Part shown: piece after piece, positions 12,588 through 55,374 of the stretch
How the letters are laid out: every line of letters starts with the position of its first letter
How positions within the stretch are numbered: the stretch's first letter is position 1
Assembly: GCA_964017185.1 (NCBI GenBank)
Contig: OZ024875.1
Span: 63,173,043 to 63,237,042, forward strand
Direction of reading: 5' to 3'
Origin: Rugalucina vietnamica
Taxonomy: Eukaryota; Mollusca; Bivalvia; Lucinida; Lucinidae
DNA length: 64,000 nt
Program-made: the position numbers and the translations under genes
Notes under the pieces: generated by a model
Told to the model about the DNA's origin: nothing
Databases searched by the model: none
The model's input: the letters and a program-made list of their open reading frames with translations, nothing else

Positions 12588-12712
12588 AGGTTGACGCCAT
12601 TATCATGCTGTGGGTTGATACGGTGCTGTATATTCTGATAGCATGGTACATTGACAATATAAACCCTGGAGACGCGGGAGTGGCACAACCACCCTGGTTC
12701 ATTTTTATGCCC
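12588..12712 (+). pseudogene. Tandem partial duplicate of exon 3, donor destroyed
   Basis: The sequence repeats exon 3 from its GACGCCATTATC segment to the terminal ATG at over 90% identity by eye. It lacks the 5' part and acceptor of the exon. Where the donor GTGAGT should stand, a CCCCCAACTTT repeat begins. The expected GTGAGTTTTCTA reappears at about 15052 after the repeat, so the element appears to have landed exactly at the duplicate's donor. The copy is unlikely to be spliced. Confidence 0.8.
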
Positions 12713-17908: not shown

Positions 17909-18030
17909 TAGAGTTTTTGTCTGAAGATTGCTGTCAAGGATACGACCTTGAACATTAATTTGATTGAGGGTCAAATAACTTTTGGTCAATAAGGGCCTGA
18001 CAAGACTAATACAATATCTAGTTTGGCAGA
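17909..18030 (+). pseudogene. Decayed duplicate of exon 5 (NBD1 Walker A)
   Basis: The sequence aligns with the following real exon 5 from its CTAG acceptor (AGTTTTTGTCTGAAGATTGC against AGTTTTGGCCAGAAAGTTGC) through GATACGACCTTGAACAT to GACAAGACTAATAC. Small insertions, a deletion and a TAA in the Walker A region break the frame, and the GHNGAGKT coding is lost. It sits about 50-170 bp upstream of exon 5, so it is a tandem duplicate that has lost function. Confidence 0.82.
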
Positions 18031-18081
18031 TTTAGTATCATAATACCAAAACATATTGTAATTTCTTTTTTTGTGTTACAG

Positions 18082-18453: not shown

Positions 18454-18595
18454 CCAGATTTCTAGAGCCTAGTGGAGGGACAGCCATAGTGGAAGGTTAC
18501 GATATACAGACTGATATAGCCAATGTTCATAAAATGCTTGGACTGTGTCCACAACCCTATATGCCTTTTGACGAAATAACTGTAAAGCATTATTA
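18454..18595 (+). pseudogene. Duplicate of exon 6 (NBD1 Q-loop), truncated
   Basis: The sequence is about 85-90% identical to exon 6 at its start and encodes FLEPSGGTAIVEGYDIQTDI and LGLCPQPYMPFDEITV before TAG at 18593. One base is missing at the acceptor relative to exon 6, which would break the phase. The last part, including the normal end and donor, is replaced by the AGCTCACCTGAGCC repeat. The open frame before the stop suggests fairly recent loss. Confidence 0.82.
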
Positions 18596-22830: not shown

Positions 22831-24003
22831 TATTTCATGGCACCAAACTCAAGGGGTGGGGCTAGAGGTCAAAATCTAGGACACCTTTATATACATGTTG
22901 TAATATGATAGCTATTCGAAATGTATATTATGTAGGTCTGTATCTTGACAACCACTTGTCAGAAAGCATTCATACTTAGACCATAGGTACATGTACCATG
23001 TTGGGTTCAGACCTTTGGGTCCATGTCCGGGGGGTGGGGGGTGGGGGGTGGGGGGCTTGTCTTCAAGATTGTGTTCAAGATTGAGGACATCAATACTTTT
23101 TTATTATTAATTTTTGTATTAATTTTTTTTTGTTTTGTTTTGGAATGGCATTCTATTTTCATTTTCCATCTAGGACTGAGGACCTGACCCTCAATGTCCG
23201 AGATTAAGTCCTAGATGGAGTACACAAGTCAGCTCTGTGTACTGCTGTAAAGTAGATCTGTAGTACTCAACTACACAACCTCATGTCTATTGGCAAACTG
23301 CTTTAGAACACACATTTCTCAAATCTACAATGTATTTGATAAAGGTACTGTCTTTCGTTTGGGATTTGAGGTTCAATGTTAGTGCATGTGCTGGGTGGTT
23401 GAGGGAGGGAGAAGGCGGGCTGGGTGACTACCAGCCGGGGGTATACGTGCCTCTCAAGGCACTTTTTCTAGTTGTATAATATTACAGTGATATACAAAGA
23501 TCTTCTTCTCTGAAACTGCTCGGCCAATCAAAGCCAAACTTTATGAGGAGCATTGTTAGGAAGTGGGAATGAAAGTATGTATAAATGGTCAAGGTCACAT
23601 GACCAAGATGGCTGCCATGGCTATAAATAGCAAAAACATTTAAAAATCTTTTTCTCCAGAACCAGAAGGCCTATGATTTTGAAACTTGGCATGAAGCATC
23701 AGGCAATGAAGCTCTACAAAGTTTATATAAATCGTGACCCTTGGATGACCTTGACCTATTTTACGGCAAGGTCAACATAGGTCGCCCATGCATTTGAATG
23801 GGGAAAATTGTTAAAATGTCATTTGAAGGGCAAAACTTGCAGTAAATTGGCAAATAGACTGAAGTTTTATGTTTTCAAAAAGAAATTGACTCCAGGGGTT
23901 GCTCTGACCCGGCCCTGGGGTTATATACATGTATATTACCATTCTAGTCAGACAAGTTTATTGGTATATATCTCGGGTTTCAGGTGACCATTGGTCCTCT
24001 GGT

Positions 24004-24110
24004 TTATATCTGGAGCCTAGTGGAAGAACAGTCATAGTGTACAGACCGATATAGCCGTAAAAACCTTCAACTGAGTTCACAACACAGTATCCTCTTTGAC
24101 CATTAAAGGA
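24004..24110 (+). pseudogene. Second decayed duplicate of exon 6
   Basis: GGAGCCTAGTGGAAGAACAG and following bases match exon 6 (GAGCCTAGTGGAGGGACAG), continuing through TACAGACCGATATAGCC to CAACACAGTATCCTCTTTGA. Several indels break the frame. It lies 60-170 bp upstream of the real exon 6. Confidence 0.78.
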
Positions 24111-28399: not shown

Positions 28400-28615
28400 T
28401 GATGTCCCTTTTGTTGGACATAAGCAAACAGTAAAGCCCCAGATGTGATAATGCAGAATGTGGCATCACATCAGGGACTATTCTGTTTGCTTAGAAGTAA
28501 TTTATCTTAAAATGAAATAAAAATTAAAAATCATTTTTGATGCACCTAAAAATGAAAATCAACTTGCCCAAATGATATTGATGGGCAAGTCCATCCATCA
28601 CAAATGGGGTTACTT
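28400..28615 (+). repeat. H3 hairpin repeat, copy 1
   Basis: The arm AAACAGTAAAGCCCCAGATG pairs with the inverted CATCAGGGACTATTCTGTTT. The unit ends in GATATTGATGGGCAAGTCCA. The copy extends to 10 bp before exon 10. Confidence 0.75.
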
Positions 28616-28624
28616 TTTTTCCAG

Positions 28625-28814
28625 GGTTGGTGAGGGTGCAGAGGATGATGATGATATCACCACAGAACCAGCTGTACCGACGTACAAGAAAACTGACAGC
28701 TTTGTCAACCCAGGGTATGGCAGTATGGACAAGCACAAGATTGCGTTTGGGGAGGATGCCACACAGAATGGAGTTGTTAAGACCGAGAATGGAGGACTGA
28801 ATGGGGGACTTAAG
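28625..28814 (+). CDS. ABCA3-like: ABCA exon 10: acidic linker after NBD1
   Basis: The exon completes EEVFLK and reads VGEGAEDDDDITTEPAVPTY, then an Asn/Gly-rich, low-complexity stretch ending in NGGLNGGLK. This is the cytosolic, probably disordered linker between NBD1 and TMD2. Serines, threonines and acidic residues make phosphoregulation possible (inference). Phase 2 in, 0 out; donor AAG/GTAAAG. It precedes the duplicated exon 11 pair. Confidence 0.9.
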
Positions 28815-28883
28815 GTAAAGAAGTACACATCAGGATGTTATGTCCGTGAAATGTATACCCCTGTACATGCAACTTTTTTCTCG

Positions 28884-29291
28884 CACACCAGATACAGAAA
28901 TCCAACGTTTTACCCCATGTGAGAAATTCTTATCTCACCCTCGTTATCTCACCGGTCGCACCTTGCGTTCAAATGTTCTTTTTAAACACTGGTTGTATAG
29001 GACGTCACGTAATTTCGTCGCTAAGCGCACACATCACAATGACGTCAAAACGTTTTAAATCAAAATGGCGGACACAGCGATTTTATCATTTTTCTAGGTA
29101 AATAGTATAAAAATCAATCTTCGCTGCATTAAGGTGAGCAAGAAAAAGAATCCATCATTCGTGTCAGGTATGGATAGACAAATCTGTCCCTCGGGTCACA
29201 ATTTGGCATCACTCGGCAAGCCTCGTGATGCCAAAATGTGACCCTCGGGACAGATTTGTCTATCCATACCTGACACTCATGTAAGATTCTT
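28884..29291 (+). repeat. H5 repeat, copy 1, with long inverted repeat
   Basis: The 0.4-kb repeat starts GCACACCAGATACAGAAATC and contains CAAAATGGCGGAC. Its 3' third (29160-29281) is a hairpin: GGTATGGATAGACAAATCTG and its continuation pair with the inverted copy around TGGCATCAC/GTGATGCCA. Confidence 0.82.
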
Positions 29292-29812
29292 ATAATTTAG
29301 TATAACTGGGGTGTACAGGGGTATACTTTTTTTGCTCTAAGATATAGACTATGGATACTGGTCATCATTATCTTCACAGAGATGGTTATAGTGTGTTGCC
29401 CAGATCTCTGTTTTTAGCAAAAGTAGTAAGAAAACTTTTCAAACAGGAATTATAAATTTTTATGGCTGTAAAAACTGTATATTTCATGGATGTTTTTTTT
29501 TCGTAACAAAAAGGCCTATCCATTGATTTTCTAAATTTTTGCTATTGGAGAGGACTTTATTGTATCTGTTATAATAGTTTGCTTTGCTAAGAAATCGTGT
29601 TAAAATTGCCTGTCTGTAGGTCAATTTGTAACGTTATACATGCCTCTGTTCATTTTATGACATTCTGTCACACGCTTGCAAAAGCTTTCTTTAAATTTGC
29701 AAAATTAACTAAAATCTGAATAATAATGAATGCAGTCAGAATATGCAGTTACTCACAATGAAAGGTAAGTTTAGATGAATATACCATGTTTTAATGTTAT
29801 CTCATTTAGCCT

Positions 29813-30015
29813 TGTGTCCCTTCTGTGGGACATGGGCAAACAGTATAGCCCCAGATGTGACGCTACAGAAGGCAGCATCCCATCTGGGGCTATTCTGTTT
29901 GCTTACAGGAATTTCATCGAAAAATAGAATAAAATTCTAAAATCACACCTGCAGCCCCTAAAAATGACAGTGGACAAATGATAATGATGGGTGAATCCAT
30001 TCATCAATAATGGGT
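29813..30015 (+). repeat. H3 hairpin repeat, copy 2
   Basis: The arms AACAGTATAGCCCCAGATG and CATCTGGGGCTATTCTGTT are nearly perfect inverted repeats. It ends about 83 bp before exon 11a. Confidence 0.78.
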
Positions 30016-30098
30016 TAATGACATTATACACAATGCTTTCCCAAACAATGCTGGTATCCAACATTAACCTCATGCTTGTCATCTTTGCTTCACCTTAG

Positions 30099-30219
30099 GG
30101 GGAGAATAGCTGGGTGCAGGGTGGTGAGAAGGGGGCTTACGTGAACCCGGCAATGGATCAGGCTGCGTACGGATCAGCTATTGTACCTATGGAGAGTGTC
30201 GGACAGAGTAAATTTATTG
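30099..30219 (+). CDS. ABCA3-like: ABCA exon 11a: linker, alternative version 1
   Basis: Acceptor CACCTTAG; the exon reads GENSWVQGGEKGAYVNPAMD then QAAYGSAIVPMESVGQSKFI and leaves one G (phase 1) at donor ATTG/GTTAGT. It has 40 codons plus one base. It joins exon 10 (phase 0) to exon 12 (needs phase 1) without a frameshift. Exon 11b, 54 bp downstream, is a paralogous copy with the same phases. The donor GTTAGT is weaker than the average donor in this gene. Confidence 0.85.
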
Positions 30220-30273
30220 GTTAGTATAATGCATGAAAATATTGCATGAGAATTTGTACTTCTTTTCCTAAAG

Positions 30274-30397
30274 GGAGAGAATAGCTGGGTGAAGGGTGGT
30301 GAGAAGGGGGTGGTGCATGTTGCCCCGGCGATGGATCAGGCTGCGTACGGATCTGCCATTGTACCAATGGAAAGCGTAGGGCAGAGCAAGTTTATTG
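30274..30397 (+). CDS. ABCA3-like: ABCA exon 11b: linker, alternative version 2
   Basis: Acceptor CCTAAAG; the exon reads GENSWVKGGEKGVVHVAPAM then DQAAYGSAIVPMESVGQSKF and leaves phase 1 at donor ATTG/GTAAAT. It has 41 codons plus one base. Against 11a it changes Gln to Lys and AYVN to VVHVA. In the 24 shared C-terminal codons it has 10 silent and no replacement differences. Using both exons would shift the frame and meet TAG at once; skipping both also breaks the frame. Confidence 0.85.
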
Positions 30398-31787
30398 GTA
30401 AATATTGTATAGCACCATTAAAACTGTGCCTGTACTTACTGTTCTACAGCTTTCTTGTGTGTAACAGTGTTTAGTTTTACTGTGTTCATTCTTTTTACAA
30501 ATGCTCTTTGTTTATGTTTATCGCTTTGCTTTATCTAAAGAGGTAAAAGTATGCAATGATCAGGAAGTGGCACAATCAGGAAAAAAAACGAGGTGGGAAA
30601 GAACGAAATTGACAATCAAGAGTACTTACACTAAGGGAACTTTATAAACTGTGATTCCGATGGATAGATTTGACAGACCATGCCTTCAAAAGGTCATCCA
30701 GGTACCTTGAAGTTGAATAAATGCCTTGATAACATCAGCTTGATTGTCATGGTTAAGAGAATCCATGAAATCTCTCGTAACAGTATAAAAACAAATCAGC
30801 TAAAAGAGGAGCGTAATTTGTACCTATCAGAATTCAAACAATTTGTCTGTAAAAATTGGTCCAAAATCGAATAAATACAGGGAACAATATAGATGCTTGC
30901 CAGCTGGCCAGTGAGAGTAAAAAAATAAATCTGTTGGCAAGTTACACTTGGCATCCTCGCCATGGCTGGCAAGTGTGATTTTCAGATGGTTTCTCTCAAT
31001 TATCCATCATTTTCACGAGAAAAACATGTTAAAAACAAAAAGATAAGGGAAGCGAGTTTGTTTTCATTAAAAAAATGAAAAAAAAAAAAAATGTAATTGT
31101 GCTGGGGTTTCACACTTTTCTTTTACACACTTCTCAACAACTTTTTGTTGTGGCGAGTGTGAATTATTCTTTAAAAAGTCACTTGCAGACACCAGCCAGT
31201 GTGAAAAAAATCCCATATTTTCCCTGTAAACATGATCCAGGAGATAGGATAAGGCATCACACACATGCTGACATGACCAAAGTGTATATTGTCTTTGGTG
31301 AGAGGAAATGAAAAAAGCCTTGCTGTCATTACAGGCCAAATAAAGTGAACTGTGAAGCTTTTACAATTTCATTATAGTGCTTTCCATGTTTTGTGTGTGT
31401 AAACCTTTGTCTTAATATGCTTTTAGGGTTATAAAATGCTTTCCTTATGCAAGCTTGAAAGATAAACTTTAAAATTCACAGACTTTTATTCACCAGAGCA
31501 CTTGCGTTTTATTAGACATCACAGACTTTTATTCACTCGAACGCCACAGTATTTTATTCACAAAAACGGTTTAGACTTCACCAAGACAGTGACTTTGTAT
31601 AGCGAAAAAATCTAACTTTTATCCAAAATATCCTCCCTTTTACTGGTTTTACCGAGTGTGCCAATATGTCAACGGCAGAACTCTACAAAACAACTGAACT
31701 GATGGCTTGTAAATGAACGAAAAATGCTTTTCTGCTTGTGATATTGAGAAACATAATTACTGCAATGATCGCCTGGATGCCCTATTT

Positions 31788-33625
31788 ATTAGCTCACCTG
31801 AGCCGAAGGCTCACAGGTGAGCTTATAGGATAGGCAGGCATCCGTCGTCCGTCGTCGTCCGTCGTCCGTCCGTCGTCCGTCCACAATTTCAAAGAAGAAT
31901 ATTTCTGAAGCTAGTAGACCGATCTTGATCAAATTTAATGTGAACCATAATTGGGTTGGGGGATTGATGGCATTAGGTTTTGGAGCAGATTGTATCAAAA
32001 TTGTGGTTTCCATGGCAACAGATAGGTCCCATAGACTTACAGTGGGAAAAACTAAAAAAATCTTCTTCTCTGAAACCACTAGGCCCACAGCTTTGATATT
32101 TGGTATGTAGCAATGGCTAATGGTCCTCTACATAAATTGTGCCATTCATGCCCCTGGGTTCAAATTTGGCCACGCCCCTGGGGGTCGATAGTCTCCATAG
32201 ACTTACTATATGAAAAAAATTAAAAAATCTTCTTCTCTGAAACCACAGGGCCCACAGCTTTGATATTTGGTATGTGGCAATGGCTAATGGTCCTCTACAT
32301 AAATTGTGCCAGCCATGCCCCTGGGGTCAAATTTGGCCACGTCCCGGGGGTGGATAGTTTCCATAGACTTACAATTGGAAAAACTAAAAAAATCTTCTTC
32401 TCTGAAACCACTAGGCCCACAGCTTTGATATTTGGTATGTAGCAATGGCTAATGGTCCTCTACATAAATTGTGCCATTCATGCTCCTGGGGTCCATATGG
32501 GCCCCGCCCCGGGGGTTGAAATTCTCCATAGACTTACTATGGGAAAAAAATTAAAAAAATCTTCTTCTCTGAAACCACAGGGCCCACAGCTTTGATATTT
32601 TGTATGTGGCAATGGCTAATGGTCCTCTACATAAATTGTGCCAATCATGCCCCTGGGGTCAAATTTGGCCACGCCCCGGGGGTCGATAGTCTCCATAGAC
32701 CTACAATAGGAAAAAAACTAAAAAATTCTTCTTCTCTGAAACCACTAGGCCAACAGCTTTGATATTTGGTATGTAGCAATGGCTAATGGTCCTCTACATA
32801 AATTGTGCCATTCATGCCCCTGGGGTCAAATTTGGCTACGCCCCGGGGGTTGATAGTCTCCATAGACTTGCTATGCGAAAAAAATTAAAAAATCTTCTTC
32901 TCTGAAACCACAGGGCCCACAGCTTTGATATTTTGTATGTGGCAATGGCTAATGGTCCTCTACATAAATTGTGCCAATCATGTCCCCGGGTCAAAATTGG
33001 CCACGCCCCGGGGGTCGATAGTCTCCATAGACCTACAATAGGAAAAACTAAAAAAATCTTCTTCTCTGAAACCACTAGGCCCACAGCTTTGTTATTTTGT
33101 ATGTAGCAATGGCTAATGGTCCTCTACATAATTTGTGCCATTCATGCCCCTGGGGTCAAATTTGGCCAGGCCCCGGAGGTTGATAGTCTCAATAGACTTG
33201 CTATGGGAAAAAAAATCAAAAATCTTCTTCTCTGAAACCACAGGGCACACAGCTTTGATATTTTGTATGTGGCAATGGCTAATGGTCCTCTACATAAATT
33301 GTGCCAGCCATGCCCCTGGGGTCAAATTTGGCCACGCCCTGGGGGTAGATAGTCTCCATAGACTTACAATGGGAAAAACTAAAAAAATCTTCTTCTCTGA
33401 AACCAAAAGGCCCAGAGCTTCTATATTTTGTATGTAGCAATGTTTGGTAGTCCCCATTATAAATTGTGCCAGTCATGCCCCTGGGTCAAATTTGGCCATG
33501 CCCCGGGGGTCAATAGTGTCCATGCATAGACTTTCATTGGTCGATTCTCAATTAATTTAAATCTCATGAGCTTACAATGTGATAATCTCTCAGGTGAGCT
33601 ACAGGACCAATGGTCCTCTAGTTGT
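31788..33625 (+). repeat. AGCTCACC-type element with ~166-bp tandem units
   Basis: Starts AGCTCACCTGAGCCGAAGG and GTCCGTC repeats; about nine units share CTTCTTCTCTGAAACCAC, spaced 163-169 bp. Ends CAGGACCAATGGTCCTCTAG. Confidence 0.85.
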
Positions 33626-33702
33626 ATATAATGTGCATAAACTTAATTGTACTTGTATAACGATGATATGCCATGATCTTTGTGAATATGCTTGTAATTA
33701 TG

Positions 33703-35057
33703 TCTCCCCCCGACAGGGTCGGGAGACATATTGTTTTTCCCCGTGCGTCTGTCCGTCCGTCTGTCTGTCTGTCTGTCTGTCCGTCTGTCCGTCACAAATC
33801 GTGTCCGCTCTATAACTTGAAAACCGTTAAAGATTTTTAAATGAAACTTGGTACACTTGTAAACCACGACGAGACGATGTGTCATGCACAAGAACCATAA
33901 CTCTAGCTTGAGTATTTTTGGAGTTATTTCCCTTTGATTATTTTCTATACAATTTCGTGTCCGCTGTATAACTTGAAAACTGTTAAAGATTTTTCAATGA
34001 AACTTGGTACACTTGTAGACCACGACGAGACGATGTGTCATGCATAAGAACCATAACTCTGGCTTGAGTATTTTTGGAGTTATTTCCCTTTGATTATTTT
34101 CGATACAATTTCGTGTCCGCTGTATAACTTGAAAACCGTTTAAGATTTTTCAATAAAACTTGGTACACTTATTGAGCATGATCAGATGATGTGTCATGCA
34201 CAAGAACCATAACTCTGGCTTGAGTATTTTATGAGTTATTTCCCTTTGATTATTTCCATACAATTTCGTGTCCGCTTTATAACTCGAAAATCGTAAGAGT
34301 TATTTCAATGAAACTTGGTACACTTATAAAGCACGATGAGATTACGTGTCGTGCTAAAGAACCATAACTCTTGCTTGCATATCTTTGGAGTAATTTCCCT
34401 TTGATTATTTTTCATACAATTTCGTGTCCACCCTATAACTTGAAAACCGTAAGAGAAATTTCAGTGAAACTTGGTACACTTATAAAGCATGATGAGGCGA
34501 TGTGTCATGCTCAAGAATTATAACTCTTGCTTTCATATCTTTGGAGTTATTTCCCTTTGATTATTTTTCCATACAATTTCATGTCCACTCTATAACTTGA
34601 AAACCATAAGAAATATTTCAATGAAACTTGGTACACTTATAAAGCACGATGAGACGATGTGTCATGCTAAAGAACATAACTCTTGCTTGCATATCTTTGG
34701 AGTTATTTCCCTTTGATTATTTTTCATTCAATTTCGTGTCTGCTCTATAACTCAAAAACCATTTAAATAGAGATTTTTCAATGAAACATGGTACACTTAT
34801 AAAGCATGATGCACAAGAATCATTACTCTTGCTTTCATATCTTTGGAGTTATTTCCCTTTGATTATTTTCCAAACACTTTCATGCACCCTCTTTAACTTG
34901 AAAACCGTAAGAGATATTTCAATGAAACTTGGTACACTTATAAAACAGAATGACAGGATATGTGATGCACAAGAACTATAACTCTTGCTTGCATATTTTG
35001 GACATGCACGTAGAAAGTGGGGAGACATCAGTTTTCACATAGAAAACAAATTCTAGT
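33703..35057 (+). repeat. GGGAGACAT element with ~156-bp tandem units
   Basis: TCTCCCCCCGACAGGGTCGG and CTGTCCGTC repeats open it; units share GAAACTTGGTACACTT at 155-156-bp spacing. It closes GGGGAGACATCAGTTTTCAC. Confidence 0.85.
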
Positions 35058-35710
35058 TTGTCTTTGTGTGTACTTGTATTGGTATGTTGTCGGTAAATAG
35101 CTATTCATAGCTGATGTTATATGTTACGTTATCCTTCTTTATATAAATTTTGACTGTAAGACAGCTCTGAGACACTCAAAAGAATTTACATACCGTATTC
35201 ATTCTAGTTAGCGCACATGCTCCAATAAGTGCACACCCTGGTCGTTTCTGAAAAAACATTAGCATAAGTGCACACAGCTTGACTAGCCTATTGGTATTTT
35301 ACACTAATTTTGTACATTCATACCATATTTGCCGCTTTAAAACTTAAAACCTCGGATGATCAATCAATATTTTGCAAAGCTTAAATGGCATCATCATTGA
35401 TATCTTTTGACATCTTTTGTTATGATGAATTGATCATTCGTGCGTATTGTGCACTTATTAGAATGATATTTTGTTACCTTCATTTTCAGTAAGTGTGAAA
35501 ATTTAAGTGCACAGTGCACTATAGAACAAATATGGTAAATTAAAACAGCAATAATGCTAATGCAAGGTTCACACAGGCTTGAAAATTACATTTTCTTGAA
35601 AATGAAGAACAGTGTGTAGGGCTATGTTATCTTACAGAAATCATGGGTGTCCTATTCTTTGTTATCTTGATATTTTTAAAGGCTACATAAAAATGTTCAA
35701 AGAATATCAA

Positions 35711-36095
35711 GGCGACCTCCTTGGCGGAGTGGTATAGAGTACTGGCCTTGAGGTTATAAAACTTTTTTCATGCTCAGCTCTGCTGAGACTAAAATTTATC
35801 CTGAGCAGGATAAATTACAGGTTTTGGAATTCTAAACCATCAATTTCAATATATTTGGGCTATTTCAGTATTTATGAGGAACTGAAATTTCAAGCTCAGC
35901 TGAGTTGAGCATGAAAAAAGTTTTATAGCCTCGGGACCTGATTTCATTACTGCGCTTATAATCGTTTGATCATCTCACTGCTAGGTCTGGTCTGGGTTTG
36001 GGGAACATGTACCCAAGCTCTGTTTTCTGTTGTGTCAGGTGGTCTAGTATGAGCTGAAATAATCGTGAAAGGGATTTAAACTATATAAAAAAAGG
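35711..36095 (+). mobile_element. S1 SINE, copy 3, split by H2
   Basis: GGCGACCTCCTTGGCGGAGT begins it; after the H2 insertion it continues with TTTGATCATCTCACTGCTAG and the AGCTGAAATAATCGTGAAAG tail. Confidence 0.7.
35750..35933. mobile_element. H2 palindromic MITE, inserted in an S1 SINE
   Basis: Ends GAGGTTATAAAACTTTTTTC and GTTTTATAGCCTC are inverted repeats of each other. TCATGCTCAGCT and AGTTGAGCATGA continue the arms. The SINE sequence continues on both sides. Confidence 0.8.
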
Positions 36096-36220
36096 GGAAA
36101 AACTAAGGGATTTTGAAGATTTCATGTTTTGGTGTAACAGAAGAATGTAAAATCATGAACACTTACGCTTGATTGGATCTTATTAAGGCTTTTAGAAGCT
36201 GTCATTATTATAAGAAAATA

Positions 36221-36411
36221 TGAGCCGCCACATAAGAAAACCAAAAACATGCATAGGCGAAAACAAACACATATCAGCATCTTTATTTTTTGCTATACAG
36301 TTAACACAATCCTTCTTCTTAAATCCGAAATTTCGAGCTTCTAGCCTGCCTCTGTGACTGTACAGGTCAGTTTGTGTTAGACCGGGTTGGAGATCTGAAT
36401 TGTTGGTTTTC
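36221..36411 (-). mobile_element. H1 hairpin MITE, copy 11 (truncated)
   Basis: Reversed copy without core and with its right end cut off, where the H5 repeat begins directly after GTTGGTTTTC. Confidence 0.78.
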
Positions 36412-36826
36412 TTTCACACCAGATAGAGAAATCCTACGTTTTACCCCATGTGAGAAATTCTTATCTCACCCTCGTTATCTCACCCCGGTCGCACCCTGCG
36501 TTCGAGTGTTCTTCTTTAACATTGGTTGTATAGGACGTCACGTAATTTTGTCGCTAAGTGCACACGTCACGATGACGTCAAAACGTCTTAATTCAAAATG
36601 GCGGACGCCGCGATTGTAGCATTTTTCTAGGTAAATAGTATAAAAATCAAGCTTCGCCGCATTACGACGTGCAAGAAAAAGAATCCATCATTCGTGTAAG
36701 GTATGGATAGACAAATCTGTCCCTCGGGTCACAGTTTGGCATCACGAGGCTCGCCGAGTGATGCCAAAATGTGACATTCAGGACAGATTTGTCTATCCAT
36801 ACCTTACACTCATGTAAGATTCTTAT
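36412..36826 (+). repeat. H5 repeat, copy 2
   Basis: Direct-orientation copy of the 28884 repeat, about 90% identical by eye, including the long hairpin (36698-36813). It ends 37 bp before exon 12. Confidence 0.82.
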
Positions 36827-36863
36827 ATTCTCATGGCCATCGGCTCTTTTCTTTGTCTGATAG

Positions 36864-37862
36864 GTTACAACAAGAATATTCACAAGAACACTGGGTTTGC
36901 TCTGATGTGGCAACAATACTACGGCATGTTCGTAAAGAAAATGATCCATTCCTGGCGTAACAAGGTCATCTCCGTCGTACAACTCGTACTGCCAATACTC
37001 TTCACGATGATGGCTCTAGCGGTTGAGACAGCGATCCCCAGCGTTGGAGATGAGCCCGAGTTGTTACTGGACTACCAGGCTTTCAGTGGATTCACGGTAC
37101 CCTACAGCGACGGCACGGTAGCGAATATGGCTAATACAGCGCTCGCCGACACATACAAGAATCAGTTCAGTGATGTTGAAAAGGTTGACCGGGGAACTTT
37201 TACTACTATGGATGATTACTTCTTACAAAAGAAGAAGGATATTGGAGAGTCAACATTCAATAGCAAAATAATCGTGTCTGGAGATTTCGAATACGCAACG
37301 CCAAGCAGCCTAACTGCTCATTTCAACGATCAGCCATATCACGGAATAGCCATCTCCCTGCATTACTTGATGAATGGTATGCTGCGGTACTTCACGAACG
37401 ATGCCTATAACATACAGACCTACAACCATCCTTTTCCAAAGCGACTGAATGACAACACCAGGGCCGTGTTTTTCTCTACCAACGGTACAGGCTTCACCAT
37501 AGCGATCAGCGTTCTGTTTGGAATGGCTTTCATGGTGACTAGCTTCATCATCTTTCTGATCAAGGAGCGGTCTGTCGGAGCCAAGCACCTGCAGGTCGTC
37601 AGCGGCGTGGGTCCTGGAGCGTTCTGGCTGTCGACATTCACCTGGGATATTATCAACTACACCATACCCGTGCTCTGCATCCTGGTGGTGTTCGCAGCCT
37701 TCAATACTGAGGCCTACGTGTCGGATGGTCGACTGGGGATCGTATTCCTGATATTTATGACATACGGCTGGGCTGTACTGCCTTTTGTGTATCTCTTACA
37801 TTTCCTGTTCAAAGTCCCAGCAACAGGCATGGTGGTGGTCTCCATGATTAACTTGGGCTCAG
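36864..37862 (+). CDS. ABCA3-like: ABCA exon 12: TMD2 first helix, extracellular loop, helices
   Basis: This 999-nt exon begins YNKNIHKNTGFALMWQQYYG and MFVKKMIHSWRNK, the standard entry to TMD2 in ABCA proteins. A first helix (ISVVQLVLPILFTMMALAV) is followed by a loop of about 190 residues (ECD2) with NGT sequons. Then come several helices (FTIAISVLFGMAFMVTSFII; WDIINYTIPVLCILVVFAAF; IVFLIFMTYGWAVLPFVYLL). The motif IKERSVGAKHLQVVSGVGP is the ABCA coupling-helix region. Phase 1 in and out; acceptor TGATAG, donor TCAG/GTAAGT. Confidence 0.96.
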
Positions 37863-41050: not shown

Positions 41051-41902
41051 GTAACTAGTTTACAGAATTTTAGATAAGCAATGATGAGGTTTAGTTTGGC
41101 AGTATGGTTACAGTTCATGTGTTAAATGTATAGAGGAAACAAAACTTTAAAACACCAAAAAATCCCTGCAGTCATTAGTAACTGATTCAAAAAAATTGAT
41201 TTTATGATAGATTGATAGATTTGTGCTTTCTTAGGATGAGGTAAACTAGGAATCGGTAAAACCGCTGATAATAGCCTGAACTATTTTCCTCTGTGTGTTT
41301 TACATGAGCTAAGGTAGTGTGAATTTTCAAGAATAGTGAGGTAAAACATATGAGCCACATCATGAGAAAACCAACATTTTGCATATGCGAAAACAAAGAC
41401 ACAGATCAGCTTATCAGCTTTGCGATTTCCGCGAAGCTGATCAGCACCTTTGTTTTCACTACACAGATAGTACAGTTCCTCTACTTTGTAAATCCAAAAT
41501 TTCCAGACTCTAGCTGTCCTCTGTGGCTGTATAGCTTGGTTTGTGTCGGACCTGGTCAGAAACCACATTGTTGGTTTTCTCATGACGCAGATCATATCAT
41601 ATGGAAGGCACAGGAAGTGCCATTTAAAAAAGAACAACACAGTACCTAATATACTAAGTAACATCAAAAAGATCAAGATAAAACCCTTCTGATAATAAAT
41701 TTTTGGGTAATTATTTATTTTTAGCTGAAAAAATGGTTCTAACTCACACTTGGAAAGTTAAACATCAGCTTTTGTATTTGAATGATAGACGGAAACCACT
41801 TTTCTATATTGAGCCTCTTGAGTTTCTAGCCTCTAACAGTTTTCTTTTTATGGATCATTGTATTCTGCTGATGGACTGGTGACACTAACATTGTATTTCC
41901 AG
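41051..41902 (+). other. Intron 16, with H1 MITE
   Basis: The H1 copy at 41351-41594 is the only element recognised. Confidence 0.6.
41351..41594 (-). mobile_element. H1 hairpin MITE, copy 13
   Basis: Reversed copy, A-type core with CAGCTTAT duplicated in the left arm. Confidence 0.85.
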
Positions 41903-47182: not shown

Positions 47183-47425
47183 AAAATTTTGTGAGAAACT
47201 GCTAATGCACTTTTTTTTTACACAATTGTACCAATTATAGATAATTTTTGTTTGTTGTATAAAGGAGCACTATACCATATACAAGAAAGATGTATTTTGT
47301 TTTCTTGCCAGTAATAAATTATTTTGTTCTGTTAATATTTATTGTTAATCTAGTTTTATTATACAAACAAAATGCCTTAAAATAATCATCAGGATGTAAA
47401 TCTGGTAATTTTTGCCAATGATAAT

Positions 47426-47662
47426 TGAGCCTCCACATGGGAAAACCAATAATCTACCTAGGCGAAAACAAAGGTGCAGATCAGCTTCGCGGTAACCGCG
47501 AAGCTGATCTGCACCTTTGTTTTCGCTACTCGGATAGTACAATTCCTCCTCTACTTAACTCCAAAATTTCAAGCTTCTAGCCTGCTTCTGTGACTGTACA
47601 GCCTGATTTGTGTCAGACCAGTTCGGAAACCACATTGTTGGTTTTCCCACGAGGCGGCTCAT
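47426..47662 (-). mobile_element. H1 hairpin MITE, copy 19
   Basis: Reversed, complete, A-type with a perfect core palindrome. Confidence 0.9.
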
Positions 47663-49124: not shown

Positions 49125-49361
49125 TGAGCCACCTCGTGGGAAAACCAACAATGTGGTTTCCGAACAGGTCCGACACAAACCGGCCTGTACAGCTTCAGAA
49201 GCAGGCTAGAAGCTTGAAATTTTGAAGTTAAGTAGAGGAGGAATTGAACTATCCGAGTAGCGAAAACAAAGGTGCTGATCAGCTTCGCGGTTACCGCGAA
49301 GCTGATCTGCGCCTTTGTTTTCGCCTATGCAGATTGTTGGTTTTCCCATGGGGCGGCTCAT
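49125..49361 (+). mobile_element. H1 hairpin MITE, copy 22
   Basis: Complete A-type copy, close to the family consensus. Confidence 0.9.
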
Positions 49362-49378
49362 AGTTTTTTATGTATTAT

Positions 49379-49615
49379 ACGCCATGTCATGAGAAAACCA
49401 ACACTTTGAATATGCACAAACAAAGGTGCAGATCAGCTTCGCGGTAACCGCGAAGCTGATCAGCGCCTTTGTTTTCGCTACACAGATAGTACAATCTCTC
49501 TTCTTCTTAAATCCGAAATTTCAAGTTTCTAGCCTTTTTCTGTGACTGTACAGGCCGGTTTGTGTCGGACCTGATCGGAAACCCAAATAGTTGGTTTTCA
49601 CCTGCGAAGGCTCAT
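49379..49615 (-). mobile_element. H1 hairpin MITE, copy 23
   Basis: Reversed copy only about 18 bp after copy 22, so the pair is tail to tail. Confidence 0.87.
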
Positions 49616-52195: not shown

Positions 52196-52201
52196 TTTAT
52201 T
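52196..52201 (-). promoter_or_regulatory. AATAAA poly(A) signal overlapping the SDR stop codon
   Basis: On the minus strand the last sense codon AAA and the stop TAA plus the next A spell AATAAA. It is the only perfect hexamer next to the gene end that I noticed. An H1 MITE begins about 20 bp downstream, so cleavage would fall at or inside the MITE edge. Use of the signal is inferred. Confidence 0.45.
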
Positions 52202-53089
52202 TCCCTTCCATACCGGCTATCTCCTCCTCTGTCAAATGTGGTCGTACAATGTCCATAGTTGTCGCCCATAACTGTTCTTGTTTCTCTTCATTCCTAGAAA
52301 TGACTGATGGGGTGGGGGTGGCAAAATTGGAGAAGTAAAATCCTGATTTACCGGACAATTCTGGGTTGACCGTGCAATTAATGCTACATTTTGCTCCTTT
52401 GAATGGACTAGTGGCGAAAAGTGGTCGACAGCAACATCTGAAACATTTATAGCATCCCTCAACTTCTCTCATGAATTCCGTGTCTACGAAGCCGGGATTT
52501 ATGCAGTTTAATGTTACTGTTCCTGTGCATTGACGTCGAAGCATGGCGAACATCTGCATGATTTGGTAAAGTTTTGACCGACGGTAGTATACTTGCATCG
52601 AATAGTTTTGCGGATCTTCCACATAATTTATCGTCTGCATGTCGAAATCGCTCCACTCATGGACGAAACTTGACATCAGCAGAAGTCGACAGTCATCTCC
52701 AGACTGTTTCATTACCGGTAAAAGTTTGGCTATCATGATAAAATGACTCAGATAGTTCACCTGCAGGCAGATTTCATAACCATCTTCCGTTTTCGAATAG
52801 GGTCGCAATCCCAATCATGCATTGCAAAATAACACGTGAAGCGGTCGACCGCTCTTTTTGAACTCTTCACAGAACTCGACTGTCGATTTAAACGAGGCTA
52901 GGTCGACTTTCATGAACTCTAGGGCTAGTGTTTCATAGTCTGCAAGCATCTGTGTGCCTTTAGCCTTTTCTTCCTTGAATTCTTTGTTCATGCGTTCCAT
53001 GGCGTCACGGGCTCGATCCTCGGACCGACAAGCCAGGATTACGGTCGCTCCCATCATGGCAGTCCATTTAGCAATCTCGTATCCCAAAC
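52197..53089 (-). CDS. SDR exon 2, interrupted by in-frame TGA
   Basis: This minus-strand exon follows exon 1 in phase 1. It encodes GLGYEIAKWTAMMGATVILA and CRSEDRARDAMERM (NADP(H)-type Arg after the second strand), then DLASFKS, LHVLFCNA, a TGA at 52817-52815, and LGLRPYSKTEDGYEICLQVN. MSSFVHEW supplies the catalytic Ser, and YRRSK the YxxxK pair (about residues 194-198). CINPGFVDTEF is the usual PG motif. The frame is otherwise open for 297 codons and ends in TAA at 52199. The family (WWOX/retinol-dehydrogenase-like classical SDR) reduces or oxidises carbonyl or alcohol groups, often on retinoids or steroids; the substrate here is unknown. The TGA sits where NAG requires Gly (GGA to TGA would be one change). 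Confidence 0.88.
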
Positions 53090-55374
53090 CTACATTGAAA
53101 GAAAATATGACGGTTAGTACTAGGCGCACTCTTGGAATATTCAACAGGGGTGTGTATACTGAACAAAAGACATGAATGCATGATGTTACAATGAGCATAC
53201 CGTATTAGCAGCAATCGCAAACAACCAATTCTGTGCACAAAAAAGTTCTAAATTGCCAAAAACAGGCGTTTCGGATTGCCAAAACGACGATCTTAGAACC
53301 CTCTCGATTGCCAACACGTGCTTTTTGGCAATCTAAAACGCCTTCAAGTTTTGGCAATCGGAAACGCAATTTTGAATAAAATCGCTCATTCCACATTGCC
53401 TCTCTTGAATATATCGCCTGAGTAATTTGTAAACCATCACAGACATTACATCCAAAAACCTGATGTCGCCATAGTATATTGATAGCCGTAAAATACTGAA
53501 ATAGATGTTACAGTTTGCGATCTGCTTGTCTAAAGAGAGCAGAAACTGAGAAACCAGTTTAATCATGCGACACGGTTAATTTAATAACCGTGCTTATGTA
53601 ACGTGCAGCCGAGCCAAGCCACAGCAAACCCCGTCGGTGGAAAAGCATGCTTCATCCACCAAAAGTGGTTTACTACGCTATCTAGTCAACACTTATTAAG
53701 GCCTGTTTACACATTCATGATTTTTGGCTACGGTACCGCTACGATTCGCCACGATTTGTAAAATCGTCGTGTACCGTGTTGATTCGTGGTAGAACCGTGG
53801 TGAATTGTGGTGAATCTTGATGAATCGTGATGATTCGGGAAACTCCACGGTAGCGCTACGGAAGTTTCAAACTGTTTAAAACATTCGTGGCGAATCGTGG
53901 CTACTGGGCGTGGCCTAATTCGTAGCGCAACCGTAGCGGAATCGTGCTTATTCGTACTGACACCGTAGCTATATTCGCGCGGCTATTCGTGAGAGATCGT
54001 AGCCAGTCGTGGAATCTTTGACACCACGAATACTCACGATTCACCACGAATTGTCGGTTGTCCTACGAATCATCCACGGTTTCGCTACGGAACTACCGCC
54101 ATGAATCGTACTAGAACCGTATCGAACCGTACAAGCACCGTGAGCATTCGTTGTGCCACCGTGGTCAATCCTCATTGACCGTAGCGTTGCCGTCATGATT
54201 CGTCATTGATTCGTAGCGATACCTTACAGACACCGTACTAATATCGTGGACATTCTTACTGGAATCGTAGTCCACTTTTCGCCACGATTCATCCCGATTT
54301 TTCTGACCATGGGAAATCGTGGTGAATCGTAGAGAAAATCATGAATGTGTAAAGCCCCGTTTACACATTCACGGTTTTCTCTACGATTCACCACGATTCA
54401 CCACGATTTCTCATGGTCAGAAAAATCGGGGTGAATCGTGGTGAATCGTGGCGAAAAGTGGAAATATTCAGTGTGACTACGATTCCAGTAAGAATGTCCA
54501 CGATATTAGTACGGTGTCTGTAAGGTATCGCTACGAATCAATGACGATTCATGACGGCAACGCTACGGTCAAGGAGGATTAACCACGGTGGCACAACGAA
54601 TGCTCACGGTGCTTGTACGGTTCGATACGGTACTAGTACGATTCACGGCGGTAGCCGTCGTGGCCAATCGTGGAGCTCCGTAGCGAAACCGTGGATGATT
54701 CTTAGGACAACCGTACACAATTCGTGGTGAATCGTGAGAGTTCGTGGTGTCAAAGATTCCACGGTTTCGCTACGGAGCTCCACGATTGGCTACGATCTCT
54801 CACGAATAGCCGCGAATATAGCTACGGTTTCAGTACGAATAAGCACGATTCCGCTACGGTTGCGCTACGAATTAGGCCACGCCCAATTACCACCACGATT
54901 CGCCACGATACGCCACGAATGTTTTAAACAGTTTAAAACTTCCGTAGCGCTACCGTGGAGTTTCCCGAATCATCACGATTCATCAAGATTCACCACGATT
55001 CACCACGGTTCTACTACGAATCACTACGGTACACTACGGTACACGACGATTTTACAAATCGTGGCGAATCGTAGCGGCACCGTAGCCAAAAATCGTGAAT
55101 GTGTAAACGGGGCTTAAACGGGTCTTTACTCGATTTACACAGTTTCGAGTTTCTAATTTGCATATTACAAGCACTCAAGATGCCGCTAATACGTTGCACC
55201 AACGTATTCTACCAAGGGAAGCTATCCCGTTACATTTACCATAAATTCGATTTTACCCGGTGATAAACTACATACTAATTAATTACATTTGCCATGTACA
55301 TACAGGGTACATACGCATCTGTAGTCTCTTAGCATGCACTCTTCTAATGAATTAATAGCCTAACACAATCTTAC
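53090..55374 (-). other. SDR intron (2.3 kb), contains giant palindrome
   Basis: GT at the exon 1 end (53090-55374 read on the minus strand) and AG before exon 2 define the intron. The 1.4-kb inverted repeat (53697-55118) fills most of it. The segment 53200-53400 contains short TTGCCAA/TTGGCAA inverted motifs spaced by tens of bases. No coding feature. Confidence 0.75.
53697..55118. repeat. 1.4-kb near-perfect palindrome
   Basis: The arm 53697-54352 is the reverse complement of about 54355-55118 at roughly 90% identity by eye. Both outer ends read TTAAG plus TTTACACATTC (or its complement). The arms consist of degenerate 10-12-bp motifs such as CGTGGTGAATCGTGG and CTACGGTAGCG. At the centre two ends meet head to head (AAAGCCCCGTTTACAC). 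Confidence 0.9.

Follow-up and report, generated by a model that had tools for sequence, protein, structure and literature searches.

Duplicated tandem exons, probably used in a mutually exclusive manner, in an ABCA3-like transporter gene of the bivalve Rugalucina vietnamica

Introduction

Mutually exclusive tandem exons are known from OGDH, in which exons 4a and 4b form such a pair (PMC7969005), and from sets of human genes (PMC5740500, PMC9741552). In the accessible portions of these papers they are homologous exons lying next to each other, with equal phase and similar lengths, which are separated by a very short intron and whose joint use through canonical sites breaks the reading frame. 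The available part of PMC7969005 puts the steric limit for the distance between donor and branch point in mutually exclusive exons at about 50 nt, and that of PMC5740500 classes 57 of 629 human clusters (9%) as potentially steric. Three further papers (PMC7917623, PMC11215311, PMC7364508) treat mutually exclusive exons, in the text available, as an event type only and name none in an ABCA gene. Among the matches listed from open-licence literature, none describes an ABCA gene with mutually exclusive exons, and no paper on intron length in bivalves was found by literature search. For oyster abca3, expression data point to a link with cadmium handling, according to the accessible part of PMC11988029.

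Here we describe, in a window of 64,000 nucleotides (the whole stretch of genomic DNA that was analysed) from Rugalucina vietnamica, two neighboring exons, 11a and 11b, which resemble the known pairs in homology, phase, length, the very short intervening intron and, at canonical sites, the broken frame on joint use. They belong to an ABCA3-like lipid-transporter gene and probably represent a tandem exon duplication whose copies have been retained for mutually exclusive use. Duplicated, alternatively used exons are also a feature of Drosophila MRP, an insect ABCC transporter, although this protein belongs to another subfamily and the exons lie in another of its regions. Exons 11a and 11b differ from the known mutually exclusive exons in that their host segment is a fast-evolving linker, and in that their alternative use is predicted from the sequence.

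Results

The visible part of the host gene occupies positions 604-43216 of the window on the + strand and comprises exons 1-10, 11a or 11b, and 12-18 with the stop codon, the N-terminal part lying before the window. With the exon 9/10 boundary best read as 26492 and 28625, joining the 17 other exons to either copy gives an assembled protein of 1494 or 1495 aa without an internal stop. The gene model contains two copies each of what we take to be the Walker A and signature motifs, and Pfam assigns two stretches of ABC_tran and two of ABC2_membrane_3 to the close relative P0001. The full ABCA architecture of two NBDs and two TMDs is present, with the first TMD partly outside the window, and the NBD1-linker-TMD2-NBD2 order, preceded by part of TMD1, is that of the ABCA3 family. 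Human ABCA3 (7w02/7w01) is the best solved structure for a 691-residue piece running from exon 10 into exon 15 (E 6.6e-98), followed by ABCA1 (1.9e-69). The alignment with human ABCA3 begins, however, only a little way into exon 12, and the linker with exon 11 is without an aligned counterpart. When the linker region was used as query, 39 homologs were obtained, the best of them at 61% over this region; 34 are named, presumably all from molluscs, with ABCA3 or ABCA3-like as the name in 22 cases. The closest named homologs are those of the clams Mercenaria, Ruditapes and Mya, and the closest overall are P0001 and P0002 (82% identical over the assembled protein). Such neighbors would most likely place the DNA near the heterodont clams, in Imparidentia to judge by the lineages of Mercenaria and Dreissena. 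In NCBIfam the best match of the relatives P0001 and P0003 is rim (TIGR01257), at scores of 977 and 1021 that fall far below its 4013-bit cut-off, and no ABCA3 model appears among the best 25 matches listed. Searches of the protein collection returned no transcript from the species itself. The only same-DNA match is P0040, a reading frame in exon 12, and the partial matches from four 'ena' contigs (P0041-P0044) cover about half of the query or less. The preliminary description had called this an ABCA gene with the exon pair in the NBD1-TMD2 linker; the gene model and the human ABCA3 structure match bear this out, and the same match, together with the homolog names, sharpens the call to an ABCA3-type transporter. 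The host gene is likely to be of this type, and phospholipid transport to lysosome-related organelles would be its predicted function.

Elsewhere in the window, three reading-frame pieces lie end to end on the minus strand at 52197-53507, in one frame with stops between them. Two of the three weakly match short-chain dehydrogenases, below the Pfam cut-off, and the whole is perhaps a decayed intronless copy. A dispersed repeat with a translation much like ENKGADQLRGNREADQRLCFRY is also found many times in the window, for example at 41323-41649, 47425-47577 and 49232-49409.

Exon 11a (30099-30219, + strand) has 121 nt, or 40 codons plus 1 nt, and encodes GENSWVQGGEKGAYVNPAMDQAAYGSAIVPMESVGQSKFI, and exon 11b (30274-30397, + strand) has 124 nt, or 41 codons plus 1 nt, and encodes GENSWVKGGEKGVVHVAPAMDQAAYGSAIVPMESVGQSKFI. 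Both are entered in phase 0 and left in phase 1, and sequence inspection places a 54-nt intron (30220-30273, + strand) between them. Intron sequence borders 11a as ttag and gttagt, and 11b as aaag and gtaaat. In the gene model the upstream neighbor is exon 10 (28625-28814, + strand), which encodes linker sequence and ends in the donor AAG/gtaaag, and the downstream neighbor is exon 12 (36864-37862, + strand), in which TMD2 starts. Over their last 24 codons the two copies show 10 silent and no replacement differences, over their first 12 codons one silent and one replacement difference (Q/K), and in the middle stretch 11a reads AYVN (four codons) where 11b reads VVHVA (five codons). When one 11b codon is dropped as an indel, the 40 aligned codons hold 19 nt differences, with 4 replaced and 12 silent codons. 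These values reproduce the preliminary description throughout: the coordinates and phases of its paralogous exons of 40 and 41 codons plus 1 nt, 54 bp apart, were re-derived identically, a recount of the last 24 codons agreed with its own, and the difference in sequence and length that it reported for codons 13-17 is the AYVN/VVHVA stretch. Searching the window by tblastn with each copy's peptide returned the other copy at E ~6e-21 and nothing further better than E 1.7, which excludes a chance likeness; no third copy of exon 11 was found within the window by this search. The two copies are thus neighboring similar exons of equal reading frame and similar length, the properties by which mutually exclusive pairs are recognized in the accessible part of PMC5740500.

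The reading frame stays open when exon 10 is joined through canonical sites to 11a and then exon 12, or to 11b and then exon 12. Joining 11a to 11b at canonical sites, in contrast, yields FIGRE followed by a stop, after three codons, and skipping of both copies yields LKVTTRIFTRTLGLL followed by a stop, after 13 codons, so that both of the dead ends foreseen in the preliminary description, an immediate stop on joining and one soon after entry into exon 12 on skipping, are found. Retention of the 54-nt intron gives IG and an immediate stop.

The intron between the copies is also very short, as had been claimed, at 54 nt compared with 251-10262 nt for the gene's other 17 introns. Counted from the 11a donor, TnA adenines occur at 4, 10, 17, 30 and 52 nt, of which those at 10, 17 and 30 are plausible branch sites below the limit of about 50 nt, and the strict yTnAy branch consensus has no match in the intron. 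With 15 nt or more between it and the acceptor, a branch adenine could be no farther than 39 nt from the donor of 11a, and the predicted distance between donor and branch point therefore falls by geometry below the same limit, steric exclusion being one known mechanism for such pairs and not a required one. Introns of about 50 nt are spliced in animals such as flies and worms, and steric exclusion is for this reason not certain here. The splice sites of the pair are themselves weak in part. In the gene's own small donor matrix 11a scores lowest and 11b third lowest of 18 donors, and in a ranking of the 18 by U1 pairing energy 11a comes out second weakest and 11b fifth weakest; weak splice sites are common in alternative exons. 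Acceptor scores are 10.0 for 11b and 3.0, second lowest of 18, for 11a, from which one might guess that 11b is the default exon.

Two other possible mechanisms of choice were considered and rejected. RNA structure gave no signal when positions 30060-30440 were folded (z 0.27, with 59 of 100 shuffles matching or exceeding its stability), and U12/U2 incompatibility was set aside because both copies have GT-AG ends. No Rfam family reaches its gathering score in 28600-37000. A repeat with a palindromic section is present on either side of the exon pair, at 28876-29291 and 36407-36824; the first copy begins 62 nt beyond the end of exon 10, and the second stops 40 nt short of the start of exon 12. 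Their palindromes are predicted to form long hairpins of -101.9 and -91.5 kcal/mol, and mutual pairing (-210 kcal/mol) is barely better than the two hairpins; in such a model, pairing of the repeats could favor skipping or circular RNA. The long intron after 11b also contains two tandem arrays (32021-33510 and 33786-35010), with spacings of ~166 and ~156 nt.

The linker in which the pair lies changes rapidly among relatives. Of the 18 exons, exon 11 is the least conserved by identity in eight of the nine homologs compared, with 12 of 40 residues matching P0001 as against 285 of 333 for exon 12, and in the last 24 residues of exon 11 only 10 match P0001 and 9 match P0002. Linker length ranges from 61 to 194 aa in the 34 of 39 homologs that could be measured and is 124 aa here. 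In a charge-hydropathy plot the whole linker falls just past the boundary and exon 11 alone on the folded side; because this gives no clear disorder, we term the linker fast-evolving and length-variable and not disordered. Duplicated exons conserve 15.6% of predicted disordered residues compared with 44.3% of others, in the part of PMC9741552 available to us, whereas 11a and 11b share 36 of 40 aligned residues in a segment that lacks a clear disorder signal. To judge from their sequences, the linkers of relatives appear too diverged to show whether they hold the 11a/11b pair. The linker also carries an NPx[Y/F] motif, here NPGY, within exon 10 (28625-28814). This motif is present in 17 of the 34 linkers measured, five of the 39 homologs (P0001-P0039) having been dropped on account of unmatched landmarks, against about 0.9 expected from shuffles, a comparison in which the homologs are related and hence non-independent. 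NPx[Y/F] resembles an endocytic or PTB-binding motif. Exon 11a reads YVNP where 11b reads HVAP, and the tyrosine of YVNP is found in 11a alone.

Silent and replacement differences between the copies were also compared by the Nei-Gojobori method, which gives pS 0.65 and dN 0 for the last 24 codons and, in the dN/dS comparison that the preliminary description had proposed, dS 1.0 and dN 0.055 over the 40 aligned codons with one indel codon dropped; silent divergence stands at 0.55-0.65. In simulations of divergence to an equal number of base differences (20000 runs), replacements as few as those observed arose with one copy free of selection in none of the 20000 runs for the last 24 codons, a block picked post hoc, and in one of 20000 for all 40, a test not so chosen although it depends on which 11b codon is dropped. 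With both copies free of selection, none of 20000 runs reached the observed values for 24 codons or for 40. Both copies are under purifying selection, as the preliminary description had concluded from the silent-only pattern, and this supports a mutually exclusive pair although it does not define one.

Discussion

Taken as a mutually exclusive pair, the two copies would be used as follows. Equal phase, splice dinucleotides on both sides and open frames, all of them visible in the sequence, would make either copy usable. Donor and branch site in the 54-nt intron may be too close for 11a to be spliced to 11b, and the spliceosome would then connect exons 10 and 12 through a single copy. Errors that include both copies or neither would, at canonical sites, run into stops with exon junctions downstream and, since these stops lie upstream of the remaining junctions, nonsense-mediated decay should remove the products. 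The resulting isoforms would differ in the part of the cytosolic linker that immediately precedes TMD2, by Q/K and by AYVN as against VVHVA, and a swap of about five residues may amount to a small tuning of linker interactions. In the preliminary description these isoforms had been proposed as possibly differing in regulation or in the partners that they bind.

An alternative is that the exons are near-equal in protein and differ in RNA, the choice between them, or the failures that hit stops, serving as a switch that tunes transcript output. All 24 of the last residues are identical at a pS of 0.65, a silent divergence near saturation. This identity within one gene is striking given how few of the same residues P0001 and P0002 keep. 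Two histories would account for it: a duplication more recent than the divergence from these relatives, with strong constraint acting on it, or selection in favor of the silent changes themselves. Stops in both failure products would suit such a switch as well. The first 12 codons, moreover, contain a single silent codon compared with 10 of 24 in the last block (P 0.059), which is suggestive only of constraint at the nucleotide level. The replacements, however, cluster in AYVN/VVHVA, where three of four aligned codons and the indel are affected as against one of 36 codons elsewhere (Fisher P 0.0016, with regions chosen post hoc), and this points to a difference in the protein. A switch at the level of RNA consequently seems unlikely to us, and we give little credence to the more specific form of the idea, in which selection has held one protein but two RNA sequences, with RNA-level control as the main function and the five-residue swap as secondary. 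If that were true, the silent divergence would have been driven by divergence of the splicing code and not by drift.

One copy might also be dead, or mere noise, beside a constitutive partner. The poor donor and low acceptor of 11a, as scored with a small matrix, also fit a little-used exon, and other exon copies in the same gene have decayed or are incomplete. A partial copy of exon 3 (12593-12709, + strand) has 4 silent and 1 replacement differences in 39 codons and is without a donor, and a copy of exon 5 (17912-18037, + strand), detected by tblastn, has decayed through a stop codon and indels. A decayed copy of exon 6 (18457-18593, + strand) has 3 silent and 5 replacement differences in its first 34 codons, followed by indels and a stop, and a short exon 6-like remnant (23990-24100, + strand) was recognized by eye only, being absent from the tblastn list. 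Exon duplication seems to be frequent in this gene, and the fate of an unselected or unusable copy can be read from those of exons 3, 5 and 6, which are decayed or incomplete. The exon 3 copy has diverged at only 5 of 117 bases, far below 11a and 11b, and its 4 silent and 1 replacement differences could be inherited polymorphism; in a copy without a donor, this ratio shows that, when the sample is small, a silent bias is not proof in itself. Frames and splice dinucleotides are nevertheless intact in both 11a and 11b, and the simulations with one copy free of selection (none and one of 20000 runs) run strongly against a dead copy, which we regard as rather improbable.

The claim that only one copy at a time keeps the frame is correct for canonical sites, but an AG 4 nt inside 11b, at the end of GGAG (30274-30277, + strand), permits an in-frame join of the two copies. 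Splicing from the native 11a donor to this alternative acceptor (exon start 30278) removes a 58-nt intron and leaves an open double inclusion, KFIENSWVKG, and mutual exclusion is accordingly a likely reading of 11a and 11b but not the sole one. Double inclusion might at times yield a longer linker by this route, and linkers in relatives do vary widely in length. It would depend, however, on a GAG acceptor lying 4 nt beyond an AAG and on an intron that is likewise short, and no relative's linker shows a repeat (by eye, among the matches listed). Some open noncanonical combinations are, in addition, expected by chance: within the scanned ranges 17 GT-AG donor-acceptor pairs keep the frame in double inclusion, two of them with the native 11a donor, and 12 combinations are open in double skipping, two of these pairing the native exon 10 donor with acceptors inside exon 12. 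We consider occasional double inclusion very improbable. That the pair is an assembly artefact, or two haplotypes placed end to end, is scarcely credible even though bivalves are very heterozygous, since the silent divergence of 0.55-0.65 is far above the allelic levels we take as usual and the 27-nt intron stretches flanking the copies are not significantly alike (P 0.14 and 0.35).

The reading that we favor is thus a tandem duplication kept as a mutually exclusive pair, and its setting makes it informative. The same gene contains a preserved pair, three exon copies that are decayed or incomplete, and a remnant, and offers a clean, testable case for why one duplicate survived. If both copies are used, the ABCA3-like lipid transporter of this bivalve has two linker isoforms.
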